Source: Pelagibacterales bacterium SAG-MED29
GTDB taxonomy: Bacteria; Pseudomonadota; Alphaproteobacteria; Pelagibacterales; Pelagibacteraceae
Reading direction: 5' to 3'
Assembly (NCBI GenBank): GCA_014653815.1
Contig: JACWDZ010000001.1
Span: forward strand, 1 to 64,000
DNA length: 64,000 bases
The position numbers were made by a program, and so were the translations under genes. The notes beneath the pieces are model-generated. The model saw only the letters and a list, made by a program, of their open reading frames with translations. It was not told the origin of the DNA and ran no database searches. This document shows, piece after piece, positions 27,955-44,895 of the stretch. How positions within the stretch are numbered: the stretch's first letter is position 1; each line of letters begins with the position of its first letter.

Positions 27955-29562
27955 TTACATGTTGCCGTACTTAGGACCGCCACCACCTTCGGGTGCTACC
28001 CAGGTAATATTTTGAGATGGTTCTTTAATATCACACGTCTTACAATGGATGCAGTTTTGAGAATTAATAACGAACTTTTCCTGCTGAATTTCATACACCC
28101 CAACAGGACAATACCTTACAGCTGGTTCGTCGTATTTTTTTAAAGTGTAGTTAATTGGTAGATTAGGGTCTTTTAACCTTAAATGGACAGGCTGGTTTTC
28201 AGTATGATTAGTTCCCGTTAAATAAACAGAGCTAGTTTTGTCGAATGTTAGCTTTCCATCAGGTTTTGGATATTCAATCTTAGGCATTTGATTAGCGGGT
28301 TTTAAAGACTCATGATCAGCATGTTTATGTTTTAAAGTAAAAGGTAGCCTTCCTCTAAATAAAATTTGGTCAACACCTGTAAAAATTATTCCTAGTATTA
28401 AACCCCAACTAAAACTGGGCTTAACATTTCTTGCAGTATATAACTCTTTATAAGCCCAGCTTTCCTTAAATTTCTTTTCGTAAATAGAAAGATCAGCCTT
28501 ATTTTTAATATTTTCAATTATAGATTCTGCTGCAATTATTCCACTTTTCATTGCGGTATGTGAACCTTTTATTTTTGGCATATTTAAAGTTCCAGCATCA
28601 CATCCAATTAGCAATGCTCCTGGCATAAACATTTTAGGCAAACTCTGTACTCCACCTTCAATCAAAGCTCTAGCTCCAAAAGCAATACGTTTACCGCCTT
28701 CTAACATTTTTCTTATAGCCTTATGCGTTTTAAATCTTTGAAACTCATCAAAGGGAGATAGGTAAGGATTTTGGTAATCTAGACCAATAACATATCCAAA
28801 ATAAATTTGTTTATTTTCTGCATGATAGATAAAGCTTCCACCATAAGTTTTGTTATCTAAAGGCCATCCCGCTGTATGCATGACCAATCCTTCTTGATGC
28901 TGTCCTTCACTTACTTCCCATATTTCTTTAAAACCAATACCATATTGTTGAGGATTTTTTCCTTCATCTAGATTAAATTTTTTAATTAATTGTTTACCTA
29001 AATGACCTCTGCATCCTTCAGAAAAGACAGTTACCTTTGCATGTAATTCCATTCCTTCTTGGTAAGTATCTTTTTTATTTCCTTCTTTATCTAAGCCCAT
29101 ATCTAAAGTAGCTACACCTTTTACTGACCCATCATCATTATAAAGAACTTCACTAGCAGGAAACCCAGGGAATATTTCAACTCCTAATTTTTCCGCCTGC
29201 TCAGCTAACCAACGGCAAAGATTAGCAAGGCTAATGATATAGTTCTTATGATTTTTTTGTACTGAAGGTAAAAGCCATGTAGGCCAACTTAATGAAGAAT
29301 TTTTTCCCAAAAATAAGAATTTTTCTTTTGAAACTTTTGTTTTTACTGGAGCACCTTCATTTTTCCAATTAGGTATTAATTCATCAAGCGCTTTTGTTTC
29401 AAACACATTACCACTTAAAATGTGAGCTCCAACTTCAGCGCCTTTCTCAAGGATACAAACATTTAAATTAGGATCGATCTGTTTAATTTTGATAGCTGTA
29501 GTTAAGCCAGCTGGACCTGCGCCAACTATTACCACATCATAATTCATTGCTTCTCTGGACAT
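27955..29562 (-). CDS. Electron transfer flavoprotein-ubiquinone oxidoreductase
   Basis: VIVGAGPAGLTTAIKIKQ; C-terminal CPVGVYEI...CIHCKTCDIKEPSQNITWVAPEGGGGP. Confidence 0.96.
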   Translation of the reverse strand: MSREAMNYDVVIVGAGPAGLTTAIKIKQIDPNLNVCILEKGAEVGAHILSGNVFETKALDELIPNWKNEGAPVKTKVSKEKFLFLGKNSSLSWPTWLLPSVQKNHKNYIISLANLCRWLAEQAEKLGVEIFPGFPASEVLYNDDGSVKGVATLDMGLDKEGNKKDTYQEGMELHAKVTVFSEGCRGHLGKQLIKKFNLDEGKNPQQYGIGFKEIWEVSEGQHQEGLVMHTAGWPLDNKTYGGSFIYHAENKQIYFGYVIGLDYQNPYLSPFDEFQRFKTHKAIRKMLEGGKRIAFGARALIEGGVQSLPKMFMPGALLIGCDAGTLNMPKIKGSHTAMKSGIIAAESIIENIKNKADLSIYEKKFKESWAYKELYTARNVKPSFSWGLILGIIFTGVDQILFRGRLPFTLKHKHADHESLKPANQMPKIEYPKPDGKLTFDKTSSVYLTGTNHTENQPVHLRLKDPNLPINYTLKKYDEPAVRYCPVGVYEIQQEKFVINSQNCIHCKTCDIKEPSQNITWVAPEGGGGPKYGNM

Positions 29563-29590: not shown

Positions 29591-30232
29591 ATGAAAAGGA
29601 TTCTAGCTATCATAGTTTTTAACTTATTCATCGTGACCTCATCTCACGCAGATGATATTCGAGATTTGCAGATTGAAGGGATAAGCGTAGGGGATAGTGC
29701 CCTCAAGTATTTTTCTGAGGAATTAATTAAAAATTCTACTACCAAAATTCCCGGCAATCATAATAACGAATATCAATGGGCTACAATTTATGACGGAACT
29801 AAGATTTCCGGCTATAGAAATCTTTCAGATTTTGCATACACAACTTTTGATACGGTAGAAATCACATTTAAAAAAAATGATAAAAATTTTATTATAGAAG
29901 GCTTGTCTGGAGGTATTACAAATGCATTTAAAAAAAATATTTTAAATATTGAAGACTGTGAAAAACAAAAAAATAAAATGTATCAAGACGTAAAATCAAT
30001 TTTTAAAGGTTCGATCTCTAGATCCGATAATGGGTCTATTCCATTTGATAAGACAGGTAAAAGTAAATATTTTCGATCAGCTTTTCAACTATCCAACAAT
30101 TCTAAATATATGGAAATTGAAATATCATGTGTTTTTTACATAGGAGAGTTAACAAAAGATTTTACCACTTCTGTAGGCACGACTATCAAGTCTGATAAAC
30201 TTAATGATTGGTTCGCTGGTATCTACAAATAA
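29591..30232 (+). CDS. Secreted family protein P1 (ADDIRDLQIEGISVGDSAL)
   Basis: Signal peptide plus family motif. Confidence 0.7.
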   Translation: MKRILAIIVFNLFIVTSSHADDIRDLQIEGISVGDSALKYFSEELIKNSTTKIPGNHNNEYQWATIYDGTKISGYRNLSDFAYTTFDTVEITFKKNDKNFIIEGLSGGITNAFKKNILNIEDCEKQKNKMYQDVKSIFKGSISRSDNGSIPFDKTGKSKYFRSAFQLSNNSKYMEIEISCVFYIGELTKDFTTSVGTTIKSDKLNDWFAGIYK

Positions 30233-30234
30233 TT

Positions 30235-30807
30235 ATGAGGGTATTAATAGCAGTATTAGTTTTAATTTTTAGTCTTCAATCCTGGACCAAGGCAGATGAT
30301 ATCAGTGACTTTGAGATAGAAGGGATGAGTATTGGGGATAGTTTGTTAGATTTTTATAGCGAGAGAGAAATTAATAACTTTTATAACTATGATCATTTGC
30401 CTTCTGATATGAAGTTCAGAATTGCTGATGATCAAAGAACAACAGGTAGTTATGATTCATTACAATTTTTTTATAAACCTAAAGACCAAAAATTTAAAAT
30501 CTATAGTATTTCTGGAGCTGTTTTTTGTAACTCTAAAAATGAATGTAATAAAATTTTTGAAGAAATTAAGTCTGATATGGCAAAATCACTAGGAGGAAAA
30601 AATTTTAAAAAAAACAGTTATAGACACTCTGATGATAAGTCTGGCAAAAGTTTTGCAACCTATTATTATCTAGCTGTAGATGGAGGACATATAAAAATTG
30701 AATATATGGATTGGTCGGAAAAAGTGGAATTTTCAGATAACGTAAATGTTGCGATCAATTCAATTGAATCAATAAAATGGATGCAAAGCAATTATGGAAC
30801 AAAATAA
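30235..30807 (+). CDS. Secreted family protein P2 (ADDISDFEIEGMSIGDSLL)
   Basis: Signal peptide plus family motif. Confidence 0.7.
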   Translation: MRVLIAVLVLIFSLQSWTKADDISDFEIEGMSIGDSLLDFYSEREINNFYNYDHLPSDMKFRIADDQRTTGSYDSLQFFYKPKDQKFKIYSISGAVFCNSKNECNKIFEEIKSDMAKSLGGKNFKKNSYRHSDDKSGKSFATYYYLAVDGGHIKIEYMDWSEKVEFSDNVNVAINSIESIKWMQSNYGTK

Positions 30808-31411
30808 AGCAATTAGACTATTCATTTTATTTAACTTATTAATTCTTATCTTAACGTTTAGCTTTCAGTCACTCACCAAGGCAGATGATATTAGTGACTT
30901 TCAAATTGAAGGGATGAGTATTGGCGATAGTGCACTAGATTATTTTACTATTAATGAGTTAAACGATTCACTGGATAAATATGATTATTTAGACAAATAT
31001 AGATATTATTTTTTTTCTTATCCTAAAGGTAAAGAATATGAATATCTTCAGATAACTGTAAAACAAAAAGATAGTAAATATATAATTTATGATCTTCAAG
31101 GACATATTTTTTATTCAAATAATATCAAGAAATGTAATAAAAAATTAAACGAAATAAAAAAGGATATAGACGGAATTTTAAATACAGAAGGAAAAGAATA
31201 TTCAGGTGCTCATTGGATAGATAAAACTGGTGAAAGCAAATATAAAAGAATTAACTATAGCCTTCAAGGTGGGATAGTAGATTTAATTTGTTTTGATATG
31301 AGTAAAAAATTGGAAGAAAAGGGCAAAGAAGATAGGCTATCAATAACTTTTACAAGCAGGGAATTTGCTGAATGGCTTGATAAAAATTATTCAAAAATGA
31401 AAACGAATTAA
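30794..31411 (+). CDS. Secreted family protein P3 (ADDISDFQIEGMSIGDSAL)
   Basis: Signal peptide plus family motif. Confidence 0.7.
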   Translation: MEQNKAIRLFILFNLLILILTFSFQSLTKADDISDFQIEGMSIGDSALDYFTINELNDSLDKYDYLDKYRYYFFSYPKGKEYEYLQITVKQKDSKYIIYDLQGHIFYSNNIKKCNKKLNEIKKDIDGILNTEGKEYSGAHWIDKTGESKYKRINYSLQGGIVDLICFDMSKKLEEKGKEDRLSITFTSREFAEWLDKNYSKMKTN

Positions 31412-31429
31412 AATTAAATAATTATTTAT

Positions 31430-32902
31430 TTAGAAAGTAAATATTTGTATAGAAGCTAATAAATAAACCAGTCCCAACCAGGTTCTAAGTTTTTTATTAA
31501 TAATTGTAACCATTCTTTGATTTCTAACTATAAATCTACTGAATCCAATACTCATAAAAGTGGGCATACAGCAGAAGATATAAGATAATAAAATATATTT
31601 ATCCAATGCAGTTAAATAATCCAGTTTAGGAATATCATCTGAAAAAACAAAGTTATATGCAATCAAAGCTAATAGAGCAACTATAGAAGTTGTTAATCTC
31701 GACTCTAGATGGCGAGTAGGAATCCATAAAACAAACCATGCGACACTTAATATTAAAAACACAGGTATTATAATTTTATAAAAATAGTGAGCTGAATTTC
31801 TTTCAATATCTAAAACTAAGTTGATAGAATTTTCATGGAAAGGATGTATTTTATTTGAATAGGGACTATAATAGTTATCTAAGATTATTTCTTCACTCTC
31901 TATATTGGTATTAGTTACAGTCCATTCTTTTAGATAATTTTTTGAGATTTTATTTATGTATTCCTCTAATCCTAAAAATGCACCTCTCTCAGGAGTTAAA
32001 AAATGTACTGAGCCATAACCTGTTTTTGGCCAAACCTCTGAAATGTTTTGACTGCTATTCGTATTAGAGGTAATTGAAATTTTTAATTTCTGTTTATCAA
32101 AAGGAAACTTTTTAAAATTAAATACTTGTCTGAATTGTCCTATACCGTATTCATGCCTAATAGTTTTTACTTCATTGTTATCATAAGTAAAATATACAGG
32201 ATAACATCCTTCAGTGACCGGAGTTCCAGTACCTGTCCTTATATCAACATCGTATTTGTATTCTTTAATATGAATTTCGTCTATGGGGTATGGCCCAGCA
32301 TCATATGTGGTACAATATCTATCATCCCCCAATAACCCTTCAGCTAATGAATTAAGCTCAGGTCTTTTATTAGTAAAGTCTGCTCGAAATGTTATTTCTA
32401 GTAACCCTTTATTGGTATCAATGGTATTTATAAATTCTAAATAAAAATTAGATAGCTTCATATCATTATAATCATAAATGTTGGGTTTAAGAGAGATTAT
32501 TTGGTTATCTTTAAAAGTAAGTTTTGCTTCAACGTTTTGTTTATGAAGTTTTCTTATTTCTTTATCTGAAGTTTGAGATAAATCTGTATCATTATATTTT
32601 TTAATCGAAACACCTGGTTGAATATCTTTGTTAAATAAAGAAAATCTTACAATAGGTAAATTTTGATTATCTCTTTTTATGATAATTTTTTTGTTATTTT
32701 TATCCCAAGCAAAATCATAAAATATTCCAATATCATTTCTTCTTTCCTGAAAAGGGTATTGTCCGATAATTTCTGTATAGTTTTCAATTATTTTATTGTT
32801 AAATTTTTCTCCTACATCGGCTTTAGCTTGAAAAAAGTCAGGTAATACCACGCTTAAAAAAAGCAACAAAAGAAATTTATATTTAATCAAATTCATAAAC
32901 AA
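31430..32902 (-). CDS. Prokaryotic pentameric ligand-gated ion channel homologue with N-terminal extension
   Basis: FPFDKQKLKISI loop; M1 FYKIIIPVFLILSVAWFVLWIP; M2-M3 ESRLTTSIVALLALIAYNFVFSDDIPKLDYLTALDKYILLSY resembling ELIC. Confidence 0.9.
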   Translation of the reverse strand: MFMNLIKYKFLLLLFLSVVLPDFFQAKADVGEKFNNKIIENYTEIIGQYPFQERRNDIGIFYDFAWDKNNKKIIIKRDNQNLPIVRFSLFNKDIQPGVSIKKYNDTDLSQTSDKEIRKLHKQNVEAKLTFKDNQIISLKPNIYDYNDMKLSNFYLEFINTIDTNKGLLEITFRADFTNKRPELNSLAEGLLGDDRYCTTYDAGPYPIDEIHIKEYKYDVDIRTGTGTPVTEGCYPVYFTYDNNEVKTIRHEYGIGQFRQVFNFKKFPFDKQKLKISITSNTNSSQNISEVWPKTGYGSVHFLTPERGAFLGLEEYINKISKNYLKEWTVTNTNIESEEIILDNYYSPYSNKIHPFHENSINLVLDIERNSAHYFYKIIIPVFLILSVAWFVLWIPTRHLESRLTTSIVALLALIAYNFVFSDDIPKLDYLTALDKYILLSYIFCCMPTFMSIGFSRFIVRNQRMVTIINKKLRTWLGLVYLLASIQIFTF

Positions 32903-32906
32903 TAAG

Positions 32907-33410
32907 TTGAGTTTGATTTATTATAATCATAATATTAAAAGAATGGCAAAGATAAGAAAAAGCGCCTCTATAGAGAGCGGTTTAATGGAGGTTTTAAAAA
33001 TTTTATCTGATGAAGAAATTAACAAAGCAATCGGCAAAACTTCATCATATTTGAGAAAATGTAGTAACCCTGATTTAGCCCAACAAATTGATCACAACGA
33101 CTCATTTAAACTTGATCAAGCCTGTATTCAAAAAGGCAAAGCTCCACCTTTATTTTATGCTTACGAGTATATGATTGCGCAGTTGCTAGAGAAAGCTGAT
33201 AATTTTGAAAATAAGGATATTAATGAAATGCTAGTTAAATCTACAATACTACATGGAAAACTTACGGAACTAGTTAAAGAGGCTAAGGACCCTAAAGGTG
33301 AAAAGGGTAAAGAGATATCAGTTTTAGAGAAAAAAGATATATTTGAAGCTATTACAGATTTAGAAAACAAAATTCTTAAAATTAAACTTACTATAGATAG
33401 TAAAAATTAA
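32907..33410 (+). CDS. Conserved hypothetical protein, possibly DNA-binding
   Basis: LSDEEINKAIGKTSSYLRKCSNPD; no signal peptide. Confidence 0.6.
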   Translation: MSLIYYNHNIKRMAKIRKSASIESGLMEVLKILSDEEINKAIGKTSSYLRKCSNPDLAQQIDHNDSFKLDQACIQKGKAPPLFYAYEYMIAQLLEKADNFENKDINEMLVKSTILHGKLTELVKEAKDPKGEKGKEISVLEKKDIFEAITDLENKILKIKLTIDSKN

Positions 33411-33435
33411 GTATCTGTAATAATTATAATTAAAA

Positions 33436-34086
33436 TTATTCTTCATATAAATATTTTAAAATAAATTTATCGTTAAATTTCTTAACTTGAGTTGTCCGGT
33501 CAAGAACATATTTCTTATAATAATCATCAGTAATCCAACTAATTAACATTCGAGAATCAAGAGAATTATCATTAAATTTTCCGTAACTACAATATACCGC
33601 TAATACATATTTTTTTTCATTATCTTTATATTTATAAACTGAAGAATCCCATAAATGTTTTCTCTCTTTACCAAACTTACTATTAGTTTTTGAATAATTT
33701 GATATAAAACTTCTTGGATTTAAATCAAGAGATTGGGCTAATTCTGAAATAAATTTATTTTTAATTTTAGGACAATCATTTTGAAAATTATTTTTTTGCG
33801 GAAACAAACTTTTTCCTGCTGTAATATTAATGATATTAAAGTTTTTATTAGTTCGTAAATAATAGTAGTTAAAAATTGAATCACGTTCTATTTTTAAGTC
33901 TTTATCAGCAAATGTATAAATATTCTTTGGAAGAAAATTCGTTGTTCTACCATATTCAATTTTTGCGTATTTACTAACATCATCAAATATTTTAATTCCA
34001 AAAATATTATCAATATTTGCATAAAGGTAATTCGGTGAATTTGTAATAAAAAAAATTATTAAAAGATATTTAAGATATTTTTTCAT
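33436..34086 (-). CDS. Secreted hypothetical, divergent member of the P1-P5 family
   Basis: Signal peptide; NIDNIFGIKIFDDVSKYA ... KNFNIINITAG ... CPKIKNKFISELAQSL layout. Confidence 0.6.
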   Translation of the reverse strand: MKKYLKYLLIIFFITNSPNYLYANIDNIFGIKIFDDVSKYAKIEYGRTTNFLPKNIYTFADKDLKIERDSIFNYYYLRTNKNFNIINITAGKSLFPQKNNFQNDCPKIKNKFISELAQSLDLNPRSFISNYSKTNSKFGKERKHLWDSSVYKYKDNEKKYVLAVYCSYGKFNDNSLDSRMLISWITDDYYKKYVLDRTTQVKKFNDKFILKYLYEE

Positions 34087-35350
34087 ATTTATCCCATTTA
34101 CCATCTTGATCGTTATCATAAGCCATTATATCTGCGGTACCGTTATCATCTTCATCTATTTCTGCTCTATCAGCATTACCATCTAGGTCATCATCAAATA
34201 GAAAGATTTCAAAGTTTTCATTTTCATTTTCGTCAAATGCTACTGCTTCAACTATACCATCCTCGTTTTGATCAATAATTGCGGCATCTATCTTTCCATT
34301 TTTGTTTTCATCTATAAACCAAACATCTGTAATACCATTTTTGTTCATATCTCTTTTTTCGGCATCAGGGTATTTTTTATCTATGCTATTTTTTTTGGCT
34401 TTTTTATTTTTTTTGGTGATCCAAGTAGGTTCTTTTTTTTTCTTTTGAATATAGTTATTTTTTTTTATTTTTTTTTCCGGTTTTTTTAGAAACTCAACCA
34501 CATCGTTCACTGATATAGCAAAATTTAAATTTTCACCTTCTTTAGTAAATGTATTTACTCCAACTAATTTTTTATTTTTATTGAATAAAGGCCCACCAGA
34601 GTTACCTGGATTTATAGGAGTTTGTGTTTGTATTACATCAGCAAAATGAAAGGAATTTTTATATTTCCACTTATAATTTGGCCTCAACTGACTTACCATG
34701 CCGCTGCTAAAACTCCAAATTAAATCATCAGGATGTCCAATAGCAAAAACTGTTTCACCAATACTGACATCGTTAAAATTTCCTAATGTAACTGGCTTAA
34801 TGTCATTTGGCAATTTCACAACCTCCAATAAAGCTAAATCTTTTTCTTTATCTATTTTAACAACTCTTGCTTCGTAGGAGTCTAAATTATCTAACATGTA
34901 TTGTTCAGCGACTAAATCTTTAGGTTTAAGCCATACCTTTACACTTTTAGAGCCTTCAACAACGTGCCAATTAGTTATTATTTTTTTTCCTTTATGATTT
35001 ATTACAAAACCTGAACCAGAAGTGCTTTTTTTTCTGTTTCCTATGAAAACAACACTTTTAGCATAATCTTTATAAATATCTTCTGATGCTCCTTTAAATT
35101 TAGTTCGAGGAGGTCTGTTTTTATTTTTACTAATTAATTTTGGTCTAATTATATTTAAGTAATCTTTATCAGTCTCAATATCTTGTTTTAATTGATTAAT
35201 TTGTTTTTTGTTAGTTAATGGCGTTTGGTATATAACTAAATTCTCTTTTCCAGCCATCTTAGAGCTAAAGATAAGACTATTAAAATTTTCTGAATAAGCT
35301 GCAGTACCGTAAGAAATTGTAATAAATAAAATTAAAAATCTTTTAATCAT
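34070..35350 (-). CDS. Secreted trypsin-like (S1C) protease with C-terminal Ca-binding-type repeats
   Basis: ITNWHVVEG, DLALLEV, NPGNSGGPLF triad; D-rich 13-aa repeats. Confidence 0.9.
   Translation of the reverse strand: MIKRFLILFITISYGTAAYSENFNSLIFSSKMAGKENLVIYQTPLTNKKQINQLKQDIETDKDYLNIIRPKLISKNKNRPPRTKFKGASEDIYKDYAKSVVFIGNRKKSTSGSGFVINHKGKKIITNWHVVEGSKSVKVWLKPKDLVAEQYMLDNLDSYEARVVKIDKEKDLALLEVVKLPNDIKPVTLGNFNDVSIGETVFAIGHPDDLIWSFSSGMVSQLRPNYKWKYKNSFHFADVIQTQTPINPGNSGGPLFNKNKKLVGVNTFTKEGENLNFAISVNDVVEFLKKPEKKIKKNNYIQKKKKEPTWITKKNKKAKKNSIDKKYPDAEKRDMNKNGITDVWFIDENKNGKIDAAIIDQNEDGIVEAVAFDENENENFEIFLFDDDLDGNADRAEIDEDDNGTADIMAYDNDQDGKWDKYEKIS
34079..34351 (-). repeat. Seven tandem 13-aa (39-bp period) DxDxDG-type repeats
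   Basis: DMNKNGITDVWFI/DENKNGKIDAAII/DQNEDGIVEAVAF/DENENENFEIFLF/DDDLDGNADRAEI/DEDDNGTADIMAY/DNDQDGKWDKYEK. Confidence 0.92.
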
Positions 35351-36846
35351 TTAAGATTATTTTTAGGGATGAATATAAAATCACCTCCAAGATGCTTCCA
35401 GGTATCGGGATGGTAGTAATAAGGTTTTTGATTATAATTTCCAGCAAATGCATTTTCTAAATTAAATGCTACTGATCTCATATTCAAAGGATTAGACTCT
35501 TTTTCAAAAATATTTAGCATATTTATAAATGATAGAGCAAAAATAGAATTTTTTGAGTTTGGAGCAGTATCACTTACTTGACCTAGACTTCCAGAAGACA
35601 AAACACTTCTTGATCGCAAGTCTAAATAATCTTGTAGTTTCGTATTTAAAATTTTGCGATCTTCATTATTTTCCATATCAAGTATATTAACCCCTTTAAA
35701 TTTTCCACCTACATAACACGAGTCAACCATCAGCGCTAAATGATGAGCCTTAATCTCAGTAAGAAATATATTTAGCTCATTTATATTAATCCAGTCACCA
35801 TTACCCCATTCTAAACTACCATCTTTTGGTATCCAATAAGCTTGTTCTGCTTTAACCATTCCGTGACCAGAGTAATAAATTAAAACAAAATCATTAGTTG
35901 TTGTAAGCTTTGATAGATCTTGAAAAGCTTTAAAAATCTCTCTCTTAGTTCCATCCCTAACCATCATAATTTTTTCGAATTTATAACTTTTATCTAGAAC
36001 TGCTTTAATAGCAGTTATATCGTTAATTGGAGAAACAAGATCATCCCAGCCATTGTCATTGTAATTTGAATTTCCTATTAGCAATGCATAATATTTACCT
36101 TTTGGATTTAAAGTAATTCTTTTCTTAGGTGTAGATGGCAAACTTCTAACAATTGATTCTTCTACTTCTTTATTTTTGTTATAGAGCTTGGCTATCTCAG
36201 TTTTGTTAACATTAAAATCAAAATTTAATCTTTCTTTACCATCACTTGTCTTGGCTTGGCCCCAACCAGAATTCTTTGTCTGAGATGTTTTACCTGCAAA
36301 CTTTAAACCATTAGAACATTTTCCAAAAACTCTTGAAGTTAACTCACCTTGGTCGACTATTAAAACGGTAGACCCAATCTGACAAGTAGTTTTTCCATCA
36401 TTGAAAAAACCTACTCCTTTACTGGTTTCATAAAATCCATCTATTAGCTTTGAGTTTTCGTCTGGAAAAACATAACCATAGAAGAATAGGTTTTTAACTT
36501 CATTAGAACCACTAAAATATATAGCTCCTTTAGGCAAATCATTAATGCTACTTATATATTTTGTCTTAGTTTTTTTGGTAATCCAAGATTTAACTGTATT
36601 TGTAATTTTCTTTTCTTCTTTTTTATATTCTTCTTTGTTTTCTTTAACTTCTTTTTTTTTCTTCTTTAACTTAACTTTATCTTTTAATTTTTTAAGTTTA
36701 ATCCACTCAGATTTTTCTTTTTTTTCTTTTTTTATTGTTTCTTTAGATTTATCACTTTTTTTAGTGATCCAATTAGCTTCTGCAGATGAAATTAGAAAAA
36801 TACCTACAAAAAATAGTATGCTAATTTTTTTAGCTAATTTAAACAT
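35347..36846 (-). CDS. Secreted caspase-like (peptidase C14) protein
   Basis: Signal peptide; YYALLIGNSNY; LIYYSGHGMVK (His); LALMVDSCYVGG (Cys). Confidence 0.9.
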   Translation of the reverse strand: MFKLAKKISILFFVGIFLISSAEANWITKKSDKSKETIKKEKKEKSEWIKLKKLKDKVKLKKKKKEVKENKEEYKKEEKKITNTVKSWITKKTKTKYISSINDLPKGAIYFSGSNEVKNLFFYGYVFPDENSKLIDGFYETSKGVGFFNDGKTTCQIGSTVLIVDQGELTSRVFGKCSNGLKFAGKTSQTKNSGWGQAKTSDGKERLNFDFNVNKTEIAKLYNKNKEVEESIVRSLPSTPKKRITLNPKGKYYALLIGNSNYNDNGWDDLVSPINDITAIKAVLDKSYKFEKIMMVRDGTKREIFKAFQDLSKLTTTNDFVLIYYSGHGMVKAEQAYWIPKDGSLEWGNGDWININELNIFLTEIKAHHLALMVDSCYVGGKFKGVNILDMENNEDRKILNTKLQDYLDLRSRSVLSSGSLGQVSDTAPNSKNSIFALSFINMLNIFEKESNPLNMRSVAFNLENAFAGNYNQKPYYYHPDTWKHLGGDFIFIPKNNLK

Positions 36847-36888
36847 CCTAATATATTAAATAATATTAATTAAATTTCTATTCTTTTT

Positions 36889-37089
36889 TTATCTTCTTTT
36901 TGGCAATCTACCGCCACTTTTAATACAATCTTCGATTGTTGTGAACTTTTTGAAATTTTTTGTTTGATCATAATATTGTGAACCAGCTTTGTGACAAATA
37001 CCTGTTTTTGACTTTTTTACAGGAGGGTCGAGTTGATCACATGAAATAATAAAGATTATTGATAAAAAAAATATAACTAGCTTTTTCAT
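36889..37089 (-). CDS. Small lipoprotein
   Basis: Lipobox IFIISC. Confidence 0.6.
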   Translation of the reverse strand: MKKLVIFFLSIIFIISCDQLDPPVKKSKTGICHKAGSQYYDQTKNFKKFTTIEDCIKSGGRLPKRR

Positions 37090-37095
37090 CTTAAA

Positions 37096-37329
37096 TTAAG
37101 GTTTATTACATTCTGAACCATGCACACCATAGGCGCTGATCTCTTGAGAACAAATATAAATAGTTTTATACTTTTTGAGAGTGAAAATTTTTACTGCAGC
37201 TCTTTCAAATTTAACAATCTCAGTTTTAACAATTTTAAAATTTTGCTTTAATAAATCATTCATTTTTGAAGCATATAATGGACTAGACCATATGCTAAAA
37301 GTTAATAATAAAACAAATATTTTTTTCAT
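37096..37329 (-). CDS. Small secreted hypothetical protein
   Basis: Signal peptide, 77 aa. Confidence 0.6.
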   Translation of the reverse strand: MKKIFVLLLTFSIWSSPLYASKMNDLLKQNFKIVKTEIVKFERAAVKIFTLKKYKTIYICSQEISAYGVHGSECNKP

Positions 37330-37350
37330 AACTTAAATATAGAGAATTTT

Positions 37351-37439
37351 AAAAAAATTTCTTGTCCAAATATCTTCTAGATTTTGGACTAAAAAATTTT
37401 TGTCTCATTTCTAATCAAAACTTGGACAAGAATTTTTTT
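37351..37439. repeat. Long-loop inverted repeat with a third partial copy
   Basis: aaaaaaatttcttgtccaa (37351-37369) / ttggacaagaattttttt (37422-37439); ttttggac at 37382-37389. Confidence 0.85.
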
Positions 37440-37488
37440 AAATAACAACTATATCTAAATCATGAAAACAAAAACAAAGGAGACAAAA

Positions 37489-37701
37489 ATGAGAAAAGTA
37501 AAAGTACAAGAAGATACGAATAGTACTTCAGTATTGCAAATACTAGGATTTTTACTAGTTGCTTTTGCAATTGCAGATTTTGCACTGTCATGGGCTGGAG
37601 TAAATCTAACAAGCTTTATGGGCGCAGCATCAAGATTTTCCCCAATGATCTTTGGATTTCTTGGCGCAACATTAATGAGTGTTGGAAAGGATGGTGACTA
37701 A
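37489..37701 (+). CDS. Small two-TM membrane protein
   Basis: Good SD (aaggagac) upstream of ATG at 37489. Confidence 0.65.
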   Translation: MRKVKVQEDTNSTSVLQILGFLLVAFAIADFALSWAGVNLTSFMGAASRFSPMIFGFLGATLMSVGKDGD

Positions 37702-37710
37702 ATATTTTAC

Positions 37711-37737
37711 TCTCCCCTTTGAAATAAAAAGGGGAGA
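37711..37737 (+). other. Strong intercistronic hairpin
   Basis: tctccccttt / aaaggggaga, 7-nt loop, no U-run. Confidence 0.85.
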
Positions 37738-37747
37738 TAAATTCAAA

Positions 37748-37972
37748 ATGAAATCATTTATACACTCAACTATTAGACTTGTAATTTCTTTAGGTAAATT
37801 TGGAATCTTGTTTTATACAATTTCTTTAGCAAGCATTGCATTAAATTCATCAGATAATTTCAGATATCTTAAAAACGGTTCACCACTATTAAAGTTAAGC
37901 GCTGTTTATATCCAAGGCGAAATTAACTCTAATATTAAAAGAAAACAGAGGCAAGTTTTACTTGAAGTATAG
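37748..37972 (+). CDS. Small hypothetical membrane protein
   Basis: 75-aa ORF with one hydrophobic segment. Confidence 0.5.
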   Translation: MKSFIHSTIRLVISLGKFGILFYTISLASIALNSSDNFRYLKNGSPLLKLSAVYIQGEINSNIKRKQRQVLLEV

Positions 37973-37980
37973 GAAACAAT

Positions 37981-39492
37981 ATGAAAGAATTTTTATATAA
38001 TATTTTAAAATCTATAAGGTTATTTTTTAAAGGAAATGATATGAGCTATGATTTTACGAACGTTAAAGTTAAACAAATAGAAGAAAAAATTAATCTTAAA
38101 GAAACAGCAACCAATGACGGGAAAAATAATTTACCAAGAGCCTCATCTGAAACTTTTTCAAATTGTGAAAATGAAGCGATAGTTTCCGCAGATGAGTTCA
38201 GAAACAGTCAAGTTTCAAAAGCTGTAGATTATTTAAATTCTATCAAAGGTAAGATTATCGATAGTACTGCAAAATTAGGACAAAAACATTTCTATATTGA
38301 TGAGTTTAAAAATAGAATCGATCAAACTTTAACAGCTGCTGAAAGCAAATTATCAAATTTAAAGAGCGCTTACACAACACAAAACAATGAAGTTCGTAAT
38401 TTTAAATTAGAAAATAAATTAAATAGAGAGCCTAAATCACCATCTACGTTTAATATAATAATAGCTATGTCTATAATTGCTATATTATTTTACATAGAAC
38501 TTAAAGTGAATGGAAATTTACTTGCACCAGCTATGGCTAGTGGCCAAAAAGAAGGAATGGCTATAGCAGCTGCAGTAGCAGGATTAAATGTATTTGTTTC
38601 ATTCGCTGTAGGCTTTTATGCGCTAAAAAACTTTCATCATGTTCAATCAATTAGAAAAAATATTTCTAAATTTGGTTTAAGTATTTATTTATTATTTATC
38701 TTTTATTTAAATTGGTCTTTAGGAGCTTATAGAGCAATACACGAAACAACTGGTGAAAATCTTATTGATGCCATTATGGGAAATAGCAACTCCCCAAGCG
38801 AAGCAATTGTTGGAAGTCCAGCATTGCCCTGGACTGTTGACTTAACATTTACTTCTTTAATACTAGTTTTTGTTGGAATTGGATTTGCTCTTGCATCCCT
38901 TATTGATGGTTATCTTTTTAATGATCCTTATCCTGGATATGGATCTGTTGGTAAAGATAGAAATGATAATCAAAAAGAAATTAATAGAATGAGAGAACAT
39001 TTATCTTCTGAAGTTACTACTTTATTTAAAAATGAAATTCGAAAAACTGGAGAAAATAGAGATGCTATAATTAATAATACTTTAAGAAAAAATTGGGTTT
39101 CAAGCATAACATCTTTAGAAAATACTTTTGAGGGTTACAGAAGATTTTCAGAACAATTAAGTTTTGCCTTAGATCATACAATAGGTGAGTATAGAACGAT
39201 CAATAGTATGTATAGAACAGAATCAGAGCCTAAATACTGGAAAGATGAAAAGGGAAAAGTTAAAACAAAATACTATGAATTAAGAGAAGAAAAAAGAGAT
39301 CCTAACGCAGTATTTAAAGATTTTGCAGTTCTCTATCTTAATAAAGATCAAATAGAAAAAAAGATCGAACACTATCAAAACTCAATTCAAAATGAATCAA
39401 ATGATTTCATTAATAAACTCAATTTATATAACGATGAAATTAATAAAAGAATTGAAGCTATACGGACTAAATATGATATTTCGACAATTTAA
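37981..39492 (+). CDS. Membrane protein with coiled-coil flanks
   Basis: About 4 TM in the centre, K/E-rich helical termini. Confidence 0.75.
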   Translation: MKEFLYNILKSIRLFFKGNDMSYDFTNVKVKQIEEKINLKETATNDGKNNLPRASSETFSNCENEAIVSADEFRNSQVSKAVDYLNSIKGKIIDSTAKLGQKHFYIDEFKNRIDQTLTAAESKLSNLKSAYTTQNNEVRNFKLENKLNREPKSPSTFNIIIAMSIIAILFYIELKVNGNLLAPAMASGQKEGMAIAAAVAGLNVFVSFAVGFYALKNFHHVQSIRKNISKFGLSIYLLFIFYLNWSLGAYRAIHETTGENLIDAIMGNSNSPSEAIVGSPALPWTVDLTFTSLILVFVGIGFALASLIDGYLFNDPYPGYGSVGKDRNDNQKEINRMREHLSSEVTTLFKNEIRKTGENRDAIINNTLRKNWVSSITSLENTFEGYRRFSEQLSFALDHTIGEYRTINSMYRTESEPKYWKDEKGKVKTKYYELREEKRDPNAVFKDFAVLYLNKDQIEKKIEHYQNSIQNESNDFINKLNLYNDEINKRIEAIRTKYDISTI

Positions 39493-40393
39493 TTTATTAA
39501 TAGCTTTTTTAGTATCATTTTTTTTAGTCTCAAATTTAGCTTACGCTAAAAAGTTTCCAGCAGGATACCCTGAATGTTGGCAAGACACTAAAAATCCAAT
39601 TATATTAGATCCTAAAAATTCAAATCAATTTTGCCCTTTAAATTCTAAAGTAGGCCATAAGTTTTTTTTAGTAGATTTTACGTCTCCTTTACAACAGCCT
39701 CAAATTGACTGGATAGCAGGTAGAATATTTGGAAATGCTTTAACTAAAGAAACGCCTCCGTATTACAAGATTTCTTATATGAAAATTGATAATACGGCTC
39801 CACAATCACAAGTAATTAGTTATTCTAAATGCAGGTTTAAAACAGGGAATAAATCTAAATTTAAAGGTGAAAAAACTAATACTGGTTGTGAAGGAGAAAA
39901 ACAAATAGCAAAAGTTTATAAAGCTTGGTCAGAATTAACTTCTAAGTTTGAAGGAGAGTTTTTACATCTTAATCACCAAGAAGGTAAAAGAAGTTTAATA
40001 TTTGAATATTTGTTTCATGTTTTAAGAGAGTCAAAAACTGATTTTACCTCAGATTATCCCAAGAGAGAATTAGTAATTGTTTCTGATTTAATGCAACATT
40101 CTAAGAGATTCTCGTTTTATAATCATTGTAAAACTAATCTAACAATTATTAAACCTGATAAGTGTAAATCTTTTGCAAGTCTGATTAAAAATAAGAAAAT
40201 TAAAAATTATATAGATGATAGAAAACCAAAAAGAGAAACACTTAGCAACCTCAAAGTAACAATTTTATATATAAATCATGATTATGAAACTAGAGATGGT
40301 TTATCTAGTTCTCTCGTTACGTTGTGGGAAGATTTATTTAAATATATTGGTATTAAAAACTACGAAATTGTTAAACAACTTGATATACAATAA
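39473..40393 (+). CDS. Secreted VWA-like protein
   Basis: Signal peptide; FLVDFTSPL and LVIVSDLMQHS resemble VWA strands. Confidence 0.6.
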   Translation: MIFRQFNLLIAFLVSFFLVSNLAYAKKFPAGYPECWQDTKNPIILDPKNSNQFCPLNSKVGHKFFLVDFTSPLQQPQIDWIAGRIFGNALTKETPPYYKISYMKIDNTAPQSQVISYSKCRFKTGNKSKFKGEKTNTGCEGEKQIAKVYKAWSELTSKFEGEFLHLNHQEGKRSLIFEYLFHVLRESKTDFTSDYPKRELVIVSDLMQHSKRFSFYNHCKTNLTIIKPDKCKSFASLIKNKKIKNYIDDRKPKRETLSNLKVTILYINHDYETRDGLSSSLVTLWEDLFKYIGIKNYEIVKQLDIQ

Positions 40394-41238
40394 TGCTTAC
40401 AGATCCTTCATTAATTTATCTATCAACTATAATTCCTCCAATTTTATTAGGTCTTGCAATATGGAAGTCAGATAAGTTTCCTGAACCAGGAAAGTTTCTT
40501 GTAGCATCTTTTTTATTGGGTGTTTCCATTAGTTTCCCTTTGCATTTATTCATCATGATAGCAGAAGATCATATTGCTCCTTTATTAGGACTTGATCTTA
40601 ATGCAATAACTGCTTGGAACGAAGGTGCTTGGAAAGATGATAATGCAGTTTATCCAGCAGCTGAAAGAACTTTTATGAGTTTTTTTAGAGCAGCATTTTT
40701 AGAAGAGGGAATAAAGTTCGCTATACTTTTATTTTTCTGTGTAAGATTATCCGCTTTGAACGAACCAATGGATGCAATAGTTTATGGTGCCGCTATTGGA
40801 CTAGGTTATGCTGCTATGGAAAATCTTGGATATTTAAATTCTGGTGATTTAGAAACTGCATGGACATTTTCTATTGTTAAAGTTAGATATTTACCTTTAG
40901 TTATGCATCTGGGTTTTGGTGTATTAATGGGATGGTTGCTAAGCTTAAATCTTTTTGAGGAAAGAAGTCAATTTAAAAGAAGAATAATGCTTATATTGGC
41001 TTTAGCAGTGCCTGTAACCCTGCACGGCTCATATAATTATTTACGTGCATATGAAGTATTTCCTGTTTTAACTTTAATTTTAACTATAGGAATAATTTAT
41101 TTTTACAGAAGAGAACAATTGAGAAAAATTACTGAGGACATAGATAAGGCAAAAATTGAAAACATAGATGTCTTTTATTCTTATTTAGTTTCAGTTATAT
41201 TAGTTACGTTAGTAATTTTGTCAGCAATAATTACTTAA
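40393..41238 (+). CDS. PrsW-family intramembrane protease
   Basis: EEGIKFAILL, GLGYAAMENLGY, multi-TM. Confidence 0.85.
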   Translation: MLTDPSLIYLSTIIPPILLGLAIWKSDKFPEPGKFLVASFLLGVSISFPLHLFIMIAEDHIAPLLGLDLNAITAWNEGAWKDDNAVYPAAERTFMSFFRAAFLEEGIKFAILLFFCVRLSALNEPMDAIVYGAAIGLGYAAMENLGYLNSGDLETAWTFSIVKVRYLPLVMHLGFGVLMGWLLSLNLFEERSQFKRRIMLILALAVPVTLHGSYNYLRAYEVFPVLTLILTIGIIYFYRREQLRKITEDIDKAKIENIDVFYSYLVSVILVTLVILSAIIT

Positions 41239-41253
41239 AAGAAAGGAGAAAGT

Positions 41254-41463
41254 ATGGAATGGTTAATTATAATCATAGTAGCAGGGGCTTTTTACTATGG
41301 GATTTATAGATTAGCGTTATCAAAAAATAGAAATCCATGGAATTGGATTTTACCTGCTCTTTTGATTTCACCATTAATTATAATTATTATATTAGCTTGC
41401 TGTAGTTCTTTGCCTAAAAAAAAATCTACTACAAGAAGAAAAAAAAATAAAAGAAGAGGGTAA
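41254..41463 (+). CDS. Small membrane protein with basic C-terminus
   Basis: SD gaaaggag; two TM; KKKSTTRRKKNKRRG tail. Confidence 0.55.
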   Translation: MEWLIIIIVAGAFYYGIYRLALSKNRNPWNWILPALLISPLIIIIILACCSSLPKKKSTTRRKKNKRRG

Positions 41464-41464
41464 A

Positions 41465-42046
41465 TTGAAAAGAATTATTACTGCATTTTTAATTCTTTTT
41501 GCAATCAATACTTCGAGTGTATACTCCGAAGATTATCATTCTTTTCTTAAAAAAAAAGCTGATCAAGGTGATGCCAGATCACAAAATGATCTGGGACATA
41601 TGTATCTAGATGGTTTTCCTGGTTACAATATTCCAAAAGATCATGAGAAAGCAGTTGAATATCTCATTAAAGCAGCAGAACAAAATCAAGTAAACGCAAT
41701 GACTAGCGTTGGATGGTTTTTATTTACAGGAGAGTATGGCGCACCTAAAGATTATGAAGAGGCAATAGCCTGGAATAAAAAAGCATCTGATTTAGGTTGT
41801 TCTATAGCAAGTTATAATATGGGTCTCTTTTATTACGGAGGATTGGCCGATTTAGATCAAGATTTAAATGAAGCAAAAAGATTTTGGCTTTTAAGTGCGT
41901 CTCAAAATATTGATAATAATAATACATGCAACGCAGATGCAGATGAGCTATTAATAGAAATCAATCAATATAATAAAAATCCCTCAAAAGAAATGCAGAA
42001 ACTTAGAGATTTTTATATAACTCTTTTGAAATCAAAGCCAATTTAA
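41465..42046 (+). CDS. Secreted Sel1-repeat protein
   Basis: DARSQNDLGHMYLDG..., NAMTSVGWFLFTG..., ASYNMGLFYYGG. Confidence 0.85.
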   Translation: MKRIITAFLILFAINTSSVYSEDYHSFLKKKADQGDARSQNDLGHMYLDGFPGYNIPKDHEKAVEYLIKAAEQNQVNAMTSVGWFLFTGEYGAPKDYEEAIAWNKKASDLGCSIASYNMGLFYYGGLADLDQDLNEAKRFWLLSASQNIDNNNTCNADADELLIEINQYNKNPSKEMQKLRDFYITLLKSKPI

Positions 42047-42047
42047 A

Positions 42048-42620
42048 GTGAAGAAAATTTTTATAATCATAATTTTTTTTAGTTTGTGCTTCATAAGCCC
42101 ATCCCAAGCGGATGATATTAGAGACTTCGAGATAGAAGGGATAAGCATTGGGGATAGTTTGTTGGAATTTGTGACTTTAGCAGAAATAGATAAATTTCCC
42201 GGAAAAGAGGAGAGAGAATATAAACGAACATTAATTCAAAAAAATTTAGAAATTTATGACAGTTTACTCGTAACTTATAAAAAAAATGATAATAAATATA
42301 TAATTGAAGGTTTAACAGCTAACATTAGAATTAATTCAGGAATTAACAATTGTTATAAAAAGATGAGCTCTATTGAAAAAGAAATTTCATCTTTATTTTC
42401 AAATCTTATCCGAAAAAATTGGGGAATATTAGAGCTTGATATACCTTATCAAACATACAATCCAATTACATATGATTTTGAAAATAAAGATAGAATTCAA
42501 ATAGCATGTTGGGATTTAAGAATTAGTAAAGATAAAGATAATGATAGCGACTTGTTTAAATTTTCGTTAATGAGTTCAGACTATATGAATGCAATAAAAC
42601 TAGAAGCAGTTGAGAAATGA
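42048..42620 (+). CDS. Secreted family protein P4 (ADDIRDFEIEGISIGDSLL), GTG start
   Basis: Signal peptide plus family motif. Confidence 0.7.
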   Translation: MKKIFIIIIFFSLCFISPSQADDIRDFEIEGISIGDSLLEFVTLAEIDKFPGKEEREYKRTLIQKNLEIYDSLLVTYKKNDNKYIIEGLTANIRINSGINNCYKKMSSIEKEISSLFSNLIRKNWGILELDIPYQTYNPITYDFENKDRIQIACWDLRISKDKDNDSDLFKFSLMSSDYMNAIKLEAVEK

Positions 42621-43192
42621 AGGTATTTCTATCAGTATTAATTTTAATATTTAGTCTTCAATCTTGGACTAAGGCAGATGATATTAGAAACTTTCAGGTA
42701 GAGGGATTGAGTATTGGGGACAGTGCATTAACAATACTCAGCCAAGATGAAATAAAAGAATATAAAAGATTTATTTATAATCAAAAAGATTATTATTCTG
42801 TAGCTTTTAGCCTGCCAAGTTTCAAAGTTTATGAATATGTCCAGCTTAATATTAAATCAGGAGACCAAAAATTTATAATTGATAGTATAGAAGGGGGTTT
42901 TATTACAAATTATAAAGAATGTAAGAAAAAAAAAAATATAATCGCAAATGAATTAAAATCTACTTTTCCTAATTTAAAATTTGCACCTGGAAAAGAATTA
43001 GTACAAAAAAATGTACGTAAAGAAACATCTTCTTACTTATTTTTTAACACCTCTTTTTTGGATGGTGGAGTAATAAGAGTGATGTGTACAGAATGGTCAA
43101 AACAAACAAAAGATACTAAAGGTTGGCAAGATTCTTTAAGAGTAGTTATTAATTCTAAAGAGTTTAATCATTTTTTAGACAAAGAGTATTAA
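42617..43192 (+). CDS. Secreted family protein P5 (ADDIRNFQVEGLSIGDSAL)
   Basis: Signal peptide plus family motif. Confidence 0.7.
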   Translation: MKVFLSVLILIFSLQSWTKADDIRNFQVEGLSIGDSALTILSQDEIKEYKRFIYNQKDYYSVAFSLPSFKVYEYVQLNIKSGDQKFIIDSIEGGFITNYKECKKKKNIIANELKSTFPNLKFAPGKELVQKNVRKETSSYLFFNTSFLDGGVIRVMCTEWSKQTKDTKGWQDSLRVVINSKEFNHFLDKEY

Positions 43193-44146
43193 TTATTTTT
43201 GAATTGTATTCAGTTTGTTTAACTCAGCTAAAAATTCTGGAAGAGCTGTAAATAAATCTGCTTCTAAACCATAATCCGCAACGCTAAAGATTGGTGCTTC
43301 ACCATCTTTATTAATCGCGACAATTATTTTACTCTCTTTCATGCCAGCTAAGTGTTGGATTGCACCTGAAATTCCAACAGCAATATATAAATCTGGAACA
43401 ACCACCTTTCCTGTTTGACCGACTTGATGGTCATTACTTATATAACCAGCATCAACTGCTGCTCTAGATGCCCCAACAGCAGCATTTAGTTTATCAGCTA
43501 TATCGTTAATTAATTTAAAGTTGTCTCCACTTTCTAATCCTCTACCACCCGACACAACTATTCTAGCTGTTCCAAGCTCTGGTCTCTCTGATTTAGTTTC
43601 TTCTCTTTTAATAAATTTAGAAGTGTTAGGAATATCCACTGCTTCAACTTTTTCAATTGAAGCTGAACCGCCTGATTTTTCTGCAGTATCGAAAGAAGTT
43701 GGTCTTATTGTTACACATTTTTTTTTGTCATTACTCTTTACCGTAGCAAAAGCATTACCTGCATAAATAGGTCTTACGAAAGTATCAGGACCATTTACTT
43801 TTATTATATCGCTTACTTGGGATATATCCAAAGCAGCTGCTACTCTAGGCATAAAGTTTTTTCCAAAAGTATTAGCTGATGCAACAATATGATCATATTT
43901 TTCTGAAACCTTAACTACTAAAGGAGCCAGCTTTTCTGGTAAATAATTTTGATAATTTGGAGAGTCACAAACTAAAACTTTTTTTACCAAAGGAACACCT
44001 GCTACTTCTTTTGAAACGTTATCACAATTTGATCCTGCTATTAATACATGCACATCCCCGTCTATCTTAGATGCAGCAGTAATTGCATTAAGTGTAAAAG
44101 GTTTAAGTTTTGAATTATCGTGTTCTGCTACTAACAATACTGACAT
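43193..44146 (-). CDS. etfA: Electron transfer flavoprotein alpha subunit
   Basis: [45 protein letters not shown]. Confidence 0.97.
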
Positions 44147-44895
44147 TATATTACTTTAGCCTCATTTTTTAATTTACTTACTAACTCCGCTACATTTGCA
44201 ACTTTAATACCCGCTTTTCTTTTTGGAGGCTCTTCAACTTTTATTTGCTGAATTCTGTTAGTAAGATCAACACCCATATCTTTAGCATTTAATTGCTCCA
44301 TTGGTTTTTTCTTTGCTTTCATAATGTTTGGAAGTGATGCAAATCTTGGTTCGTTTAATCTTAAATCACAAGAAACTACCGCTGGTAAATTAACCTCTAT
44401 TGTTTCAAGTCCTTCATCGATTTCTCTTACTATTTCTATAGATTTATCTTTTAAATTTACTTTAGAGGTAAAAGTTGCTTGAGGCCAACCAAGCATCGCG
44501 GCGAGCATTTGACCCGTTTGATTACAATCATCATCAATTGCTTGTTTACCTAAAAAAACCATGTCAGGTTTTTCTTTTTCTACAATTTTTTTAAGAATTT
44601 TGGCAATACCTAAAGGTTCAATATAGCTATCAGCCTTTACATGAATTCCTTTATCAGCTCCTACTGCAAGAGCTTTTCTAATACTTTCTTGAGCCTTATC
44701 CTCTCCAATTGAAATGGCAACTACCTCTTTAACTTTACCAGACTCTTTAAGCTTAACTGATTCTTCTACCGCATTATCATCAGGCGGATTAGTTGACATT
44801 TTTACATTATCTGTATGGACACCAGAGCCGTCCTCTTTAACTCTAATTTGAACGTTGTAATCAATAACTCTTTTAACTGCTACTAGAATTTTCAT
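44146..44895 (-). CDS. etfB: Electron transfer flavoprotein beta subunit
   Basis: MKILVAVKRVIDYNVQIRVK; VFLGKQAIDDD. Confidence 0.97.
   Translation of the reverse strand: MKILVAVKRVIDYNVQIRVKEDGSGVHTDNVKMSTNPPDDNAVEESVKLKESGKVKEVVAISIGEDKAQESIRKALAVGADKGIHVKADSYIEPLGIAKILKKIVEKEKPDMVFLGKQAIDDDCNQTGQMLAAMLGWPQATFTSKVNLKDKSIEIVREIDEGLETIEVNLPAVVSCDLRLNEPRFASLPNIMKAKKKPMEQLNAKDMGVDLTNRIQQIKVEEPPKRKAGIKVANVAELVSKLKNEAKVI

Follow-up and report, generated by a model that had tools for sequence, protein, structure and literature searches.

The window (the whole stretch of 64,000 nucleotides analysed here) carries on its minus strand, at 31430..32896, a gene of 488 codons plus stop whose product has matches in the PDB, a recognisable predicted fold and orthologues among related bacteria. 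Its likely start is the ATG at 32896, which opens a signal-like peptide and is preferred over a TTG at 32902. In a phmmer search against the PDB the protein matched DeCLIC (8e-14), ELIC (2e-13), sTeLIC (6e-10) and GLIC (2e-7). The Pfam transmembrane model PF02932 (Neur_chan_memb) scored above its cut-off (1.1e-6, 29.5 bits vs 28.1), the Pfam ligand-binding-domain model PF02931 gave only 0.014, under its cut-off, and NCBIfam LGIC_1 reached 6.6e-24 yet stayed under its curated cut-off. DeCLIC was also the top PDB match (3e-18) when a full-length AF2 model (20 homologues, pLDDT 79, pTM 0.74) was searched with Foldseek, and GABA-A receptor chains matched the same model with TM-scores of about 0.7 (normalised to the target); it is by these full-length matches that the beta-sandwich ligand-binding domain is recognised. 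Full-length orthologues range from 96 to 34% identity and whole-gene dN/dS is 0.13–0.30 against six relatives, which argues that the ORF is not a chance one. Taken together, the sequence, profile and predicted-fold matches establish that the ORF encodes a pentameric ligand-gated ion channel (pLGIC). The initial annotation had already read it as a pLGIC homologue with an N-terminal extension and had proposed profile searches and fold prediction as the means of overturning that reading; both bear it out.

The four-helix transmembrane domain (residues 367–488, 31433..31798, minus strand) was delimited by PF02932 and by the AF2 helices at 368–389, 394–420, 430–453 and 460–487, and the extracellular (periplasmic) beta-sandwich domain (residues 147–366, 31799..32458, minus strand) by AF2 and Foldseek. 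The family hallmarks pointed out earlier are in place: the M1 proline is residue 378 and the Pro-loop FPFDKQ (residues 264–269, 32090..32107, minus strand) keeps P265 and D267 in 97 of 98 homologues, and the pre-M1 arginine of pLGICs is present as R366. The pore helix M2 (residues 394–420, 31637..31717, minus strand) reads E(−2′)-S-R(0′)-L-T(2′)-T-S-I-V(6′)-A-L-L(9′)…A(13′)-Y-N-F(16′). The glutamate noted at −2′ (E398) and the valine noted at 6′ both belong to wider patterns, with E or D at −2′ in 90/98 homologues and V or I at 6′ in 91/98, and position 9′ is leucine in 95/98 and 13′ alanine in all 98. By comparison with the pLGIC family, the acidic ring at −2′ suggests a cation-selective pore. 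The pore had been likened to those of ELIC and DeCLIC, and these two head the phmmer matches; the ELIC pore likewise has alanine at 13′ and phenylalanine at 16′. ELIC, GLIC and sTeLIC share with this channel the layout of an extracellular domain (ECD) and four transmembrane helices with a short M3–M4 link, but they have no accessory domain and differ from its hydrophobic 6′ position. The channel probably assembles as a pentamer, the structure predictions being all of monomers.

The N-terminal extension spans residues ~27–146, so that it adds about 120 residues beyond the signal peptide (residues 1–26, 32819..32896, minus strand; read from the sequence, with an AF2 helix at 3–17) and not the roughly 200 first estimated. 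Most of it is a PDZ domain (residues ~49–146, 32459..32752, minus strand), an identity that the initial annotation, correct on the channel and its pore, had missed. When a profile of 74 homologous N-terminal domains (NTDs) was compared with the PDB, PDZ proteins appeared all through the top 60 matches (RseP at 7e-12, DegP/DegQ, PSD-95, GRIP1 and ZO-1 among them). Pfam PDZ models matched 10 of the 74 NTDs taken in isolation (best 2.6e-7) and did not match the NTD of the window protein itself, whose subfamily has diverged from Pfam PDZ; a profile of that subfamily alone gave three weak PDZ matches (E 0.61–0.9) at the head of five. The window-type and the clearer PDZ-type NTDs are nevertheless joined by hhalign (98.8%, 4.8e-17, 109 columns), and it is this profile–profile link and the family profile, not the comparison of the window protein with Pfam, that argue for PDZ homology at the level of sequence. 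The isolated NTD was modelled by AF2 with a pLDDT of 92.9, and its best Foldseek matches were DegQ, CtpA, HtrA, DegS and PSD-95 PDZ3 (top probability 1.0); the scores were modest (best E 2e-3, TM no higher than ~0.54), with nearly all of the top 50 being PDZ-containing proteins. A jelly-roll NTD like that of DeCLIC was considered and rejected, as both the profile and the model match PDZ instead. We regard the architecture of a PDZ domain on a pLGIC as well supported and very probably correct.

The counterpart of the PDZ carboxylate-binding loop, located from the alignment and the strand order and not by inspection of coordinates, is N-D-I-G-I (residues 54–58, 32723..32737, minus strand). Its Gly57 is the most conserved position of the NTD (75 of 76 PDZ-bearing homologues), and a GD-I--ING pattern is visible in longer homologues from that family of bacteria. 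Over the PDZ domain dN/dS was 0.19–0.25 in five of six comparisons and 0.54 in the sixth, made with the closest relative at a dS of only 0.04. These values bear on the idea that the domain is degenerate or purely structural and binds no ligand, leaving an ordinary bacterial pLGIC; the distance of the window subfamily from Pfam PDZ would fit such decay, but the near-invariant glycine and the purifying selection argue against it, and we rate it as distinctly improbable. More probably the domain binds C-terminal peptides.

Its place in the chain is between an N-terminal helix with linker (residues 27–48, 32753..32818, minus strand) and strand 1 of the ECD, and it therefore resembles an insertion within the ECD chain more than a domain prepended to it. 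One cysteine in this helix and another in the ECD are shared by most homologues, PDZ-bearing and PDZ-less alike. The window protein lacks the helix cysteine and has C195 and C231, which in its closest relatives are either both kept or both missing; a disulfide in the channel may be read from this pattern.

An accessory region ahead of the ECD is also found in DeCLIC (PDB 6v4a, 9ftg, 9eva), the top PDB match in both sequence and fold, but the NTD of this Desulfofustis channel consists of two jelly-roll lobes in place of the single PDZ, and the channel is under Ca2+ control (PMC9897478, PMC12664993). Prokaryotic pLGICs fused to PBP-I, Cache or MCP-N likewise carry a sensor domain N-terminal to the ligand-binding domain, and PDZ is missing from the fusions listed (PMC549065). 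The nearest relatives of the PDZ domain, by profile and by fold, are those of HtrA/DegS and RseP, which serve in periplasmic peptide sensing. No published PDZ–pLGIC fusion was found in the open-licence papers searched, as judged from titles and abstracts, and PDZ is apparently, though not certainly, a new accessory domain for the family.

The relatives that carry a name come from single-cell genomes and MAGs of Pelagibacteraceae, from one SAR86 genome (L090) and from two genomes labelled Alphaproteobacteria (L099, L108). The distribution check across SAR11 that had been suggested gave a match in 26 of the 297 same-family genomes and, by profile search, a pLGIC in 12 of 81 of the same genus. 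The assignment to this host group thus stands, but the occurrence there is less unexpected than first thought, since Pelagibacter had already been named as a pLGIC-bearing genus (PMC4795631). Among the other proteobacterial pLGICs sampled, most outgroup sequences read as lacking PDZ, and several of these carry an apparent PBP-I fusion; PDZ was read in L126/L127 and L108. In a tree of the ECD and transmembrane domain the PDZ carriers group strongly, with 3 label changes against 26 expected from shuffles (one of the three stems from the truncated contig L058), which allows either one gain of PDZ with loss or two gains. The genome from which the window comes has a second pLGIC of about 420 residues without PDZ (L002, G000:C45:12361-13236, on contig 45) that belongs to a separate subfamily (L002, L024–L027). 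More than one pLGIC is present in thirteen loci, so that heteromers are possible. At nine loci (L076, L077, L079, L088, L089, L098, L101, L106 and L107) pairs of pLGIC genes lie beside a gene read as an FAD-dependent (amine-oxidase-like) oxidoreductase (cluster 13).

The channel gene belongs to the module of an accessory island (29591–43189) whose flanks vary between groups and are here the gene for ETF-ubiquinone oxidoreductase (27958–29562) on one side and genes read as ETF-subunit-like (43196–44895) on the other. Three tandem paralogous small secreted proteins with the signature DDISDF-IEG-SIGDS (29591..31411, plus strand; a fourth at 42617–43189) adjoin the channel; this heavily duplicated family has 135 copies in 32 related loci and matched no Pfam model above cut-off. 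Divergently transcribed 46 bp from the channel start is A155 (32943..33407, plus strand; 155 aa, no confident family), a possible regulator. In 37/39 window-type and 25/35 type II loci it is no more than three genes away from the channel, and close copies (E 1e-40 or better) are restricted to pLGIC-bearing genomes. The island also encodes a probable membrane protein of 79 aa (37462..37698, plus strand; 35 loci) and a Sel1-repeat protein (41600–42043, plus strand; PF08238 2.3e-20; 14 loci). Related islands (L038–L062) encode a small exported-looking protein, cluster 11, whose C-terminus is -K[LIK]F in 13 of its 14 copies and is a possible PDZ ligand, but the window has no assigned copy.

Three proteases, a module that the first reading had also missed, complete the island. 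An HtrA-type trypsin-fold protease with a signal-like N-terminus (34073..35350, minus strand) matches the protease domains of HtrA1, Do-like and DegP proteins and none of the PDZ models, and its acidic C-terminal D-x-D-x-D-G repeats (34073–34400, minus strand) possibly bind Ca2+. Next to it lies a caspase-family (C14) protein with a signal-like N-terminus and His-Gly and Ser-Cys motifs (35350..36846, minus strand), and the third is a PrsW-family intramembrane protease (40393..41235, plus strand; PF13367 1.2e-28). The HtrA-type gene is at most three genes away from the channel in 35/39 window-type loci and the caspase-family gene in 30/39, and the caspase gene is present in 6/6 same-genus genomes with a window-type channel and in 2/75 others (n = 81; Fisher 9e-8, uncorrected for relatedness). 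PrsW is similarly close in 33/35 type II PDZ–pLGIC loci, which are without the caspase gene and mostly without the HtrA-type gene; therefore no one protease is obligatory. In the closest relative (G273; L030 6704-8192) the caspase-family gene is disrupted by several stop codons, while the channel and the HtrA-like protease are intact.

Such neighbours, on an accessory island with variable flanks and with a pLGIC in so few genomes of the genus, recall a stress or conflict module (defence-like, or for programmed death) in which the proteases would sense an assault and the channel, as effector, would depolarise the cell, much as pores activated by proteases do. PADLOC does match both proteases to caspase and RT-protease models, but it recognised no complete known defence system. 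The small island neighbours matched none of the known phage or defence families, and no relative of the channel was found in the viral contigs searched. The known bacterial caspase–gasdermin systems work in the cytoplasm, whereas the HtrA-type and caspase-family proteins, as far as sequence can tell, look exported. We rate this reading as unlikely.

With a PDZ domain on the channel and genes for secreted proteases adjoining it, the channel may answer to protein tails and not to small transmitters, and the reading we tentatively favour, at somewhat less than an even chance, is that a PDZ domain occupied by a peptide or tail gates or positions the cation pore and is linked to periplasmic proteolysis. 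The pLGIC would sit in the inner membrane with PDZ on the periplasmic face, and a pentamer would present five such domains to periplasmic C-terminal peptides or tails. Candidate ligands would be the exposed tails of the neighbours or new C-termini cut by the HtrA-type and caspase-family proteins. Binding would then open, close or position the cation-selective pore and so convert a proteolytic or envelope signal into ion flux. The main rival is pure tethering, in which PDZ fastens the channel to an envelope protein or protease and a small molecule, a proton or Ca2+ gates through the canonical ECD; we consider this quite possible if rather doubtful. The closest solved relative, DeCLIC, is controlled by Ca2+, ELIC responds to amines and GLIC to protons, and PDZ proteins of animals act as channel anchors. 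Moreover PDZ-less paralogues share genomes with the PDZ pLGICs and also occur in tandem with them, so that gating need not require PDZ. The position of PDZ within the ECD chain, between helix and strand 1, is on the other hand one fit for allosteric coupling, and the PDZ loop is strongly conserved, both of which speak against pure tethering.

The functional tie between proteases and channel is suggested by gene co-location, which does not prove function. We give little credence to the full relay, in which exported HtrA-like and caspase-like proteases would create C-termini that bind PDZ and open the pLGIC cation pore. DegP, DegS and HtrA1 carry protease and PDZ on one chain; in the SAR11 island a PDZ-bearing channel is paired with an HtrA-type protease lacking a PDZ match. 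What bacterial pLGICs do for their owners is poorly known, and a peptide-binding domain borne by the channel, with conserved protease neighbours, points to a concrete class of ligand. The relay, if true, would amount to a peptide-gated electrical signal coupled to proteolysis in the SAR11 periplasm. The PDZ domain itself gives the pLGIC family an apparently new accessory domain, and this in one of the most abundant bacterial groups of the ocean.
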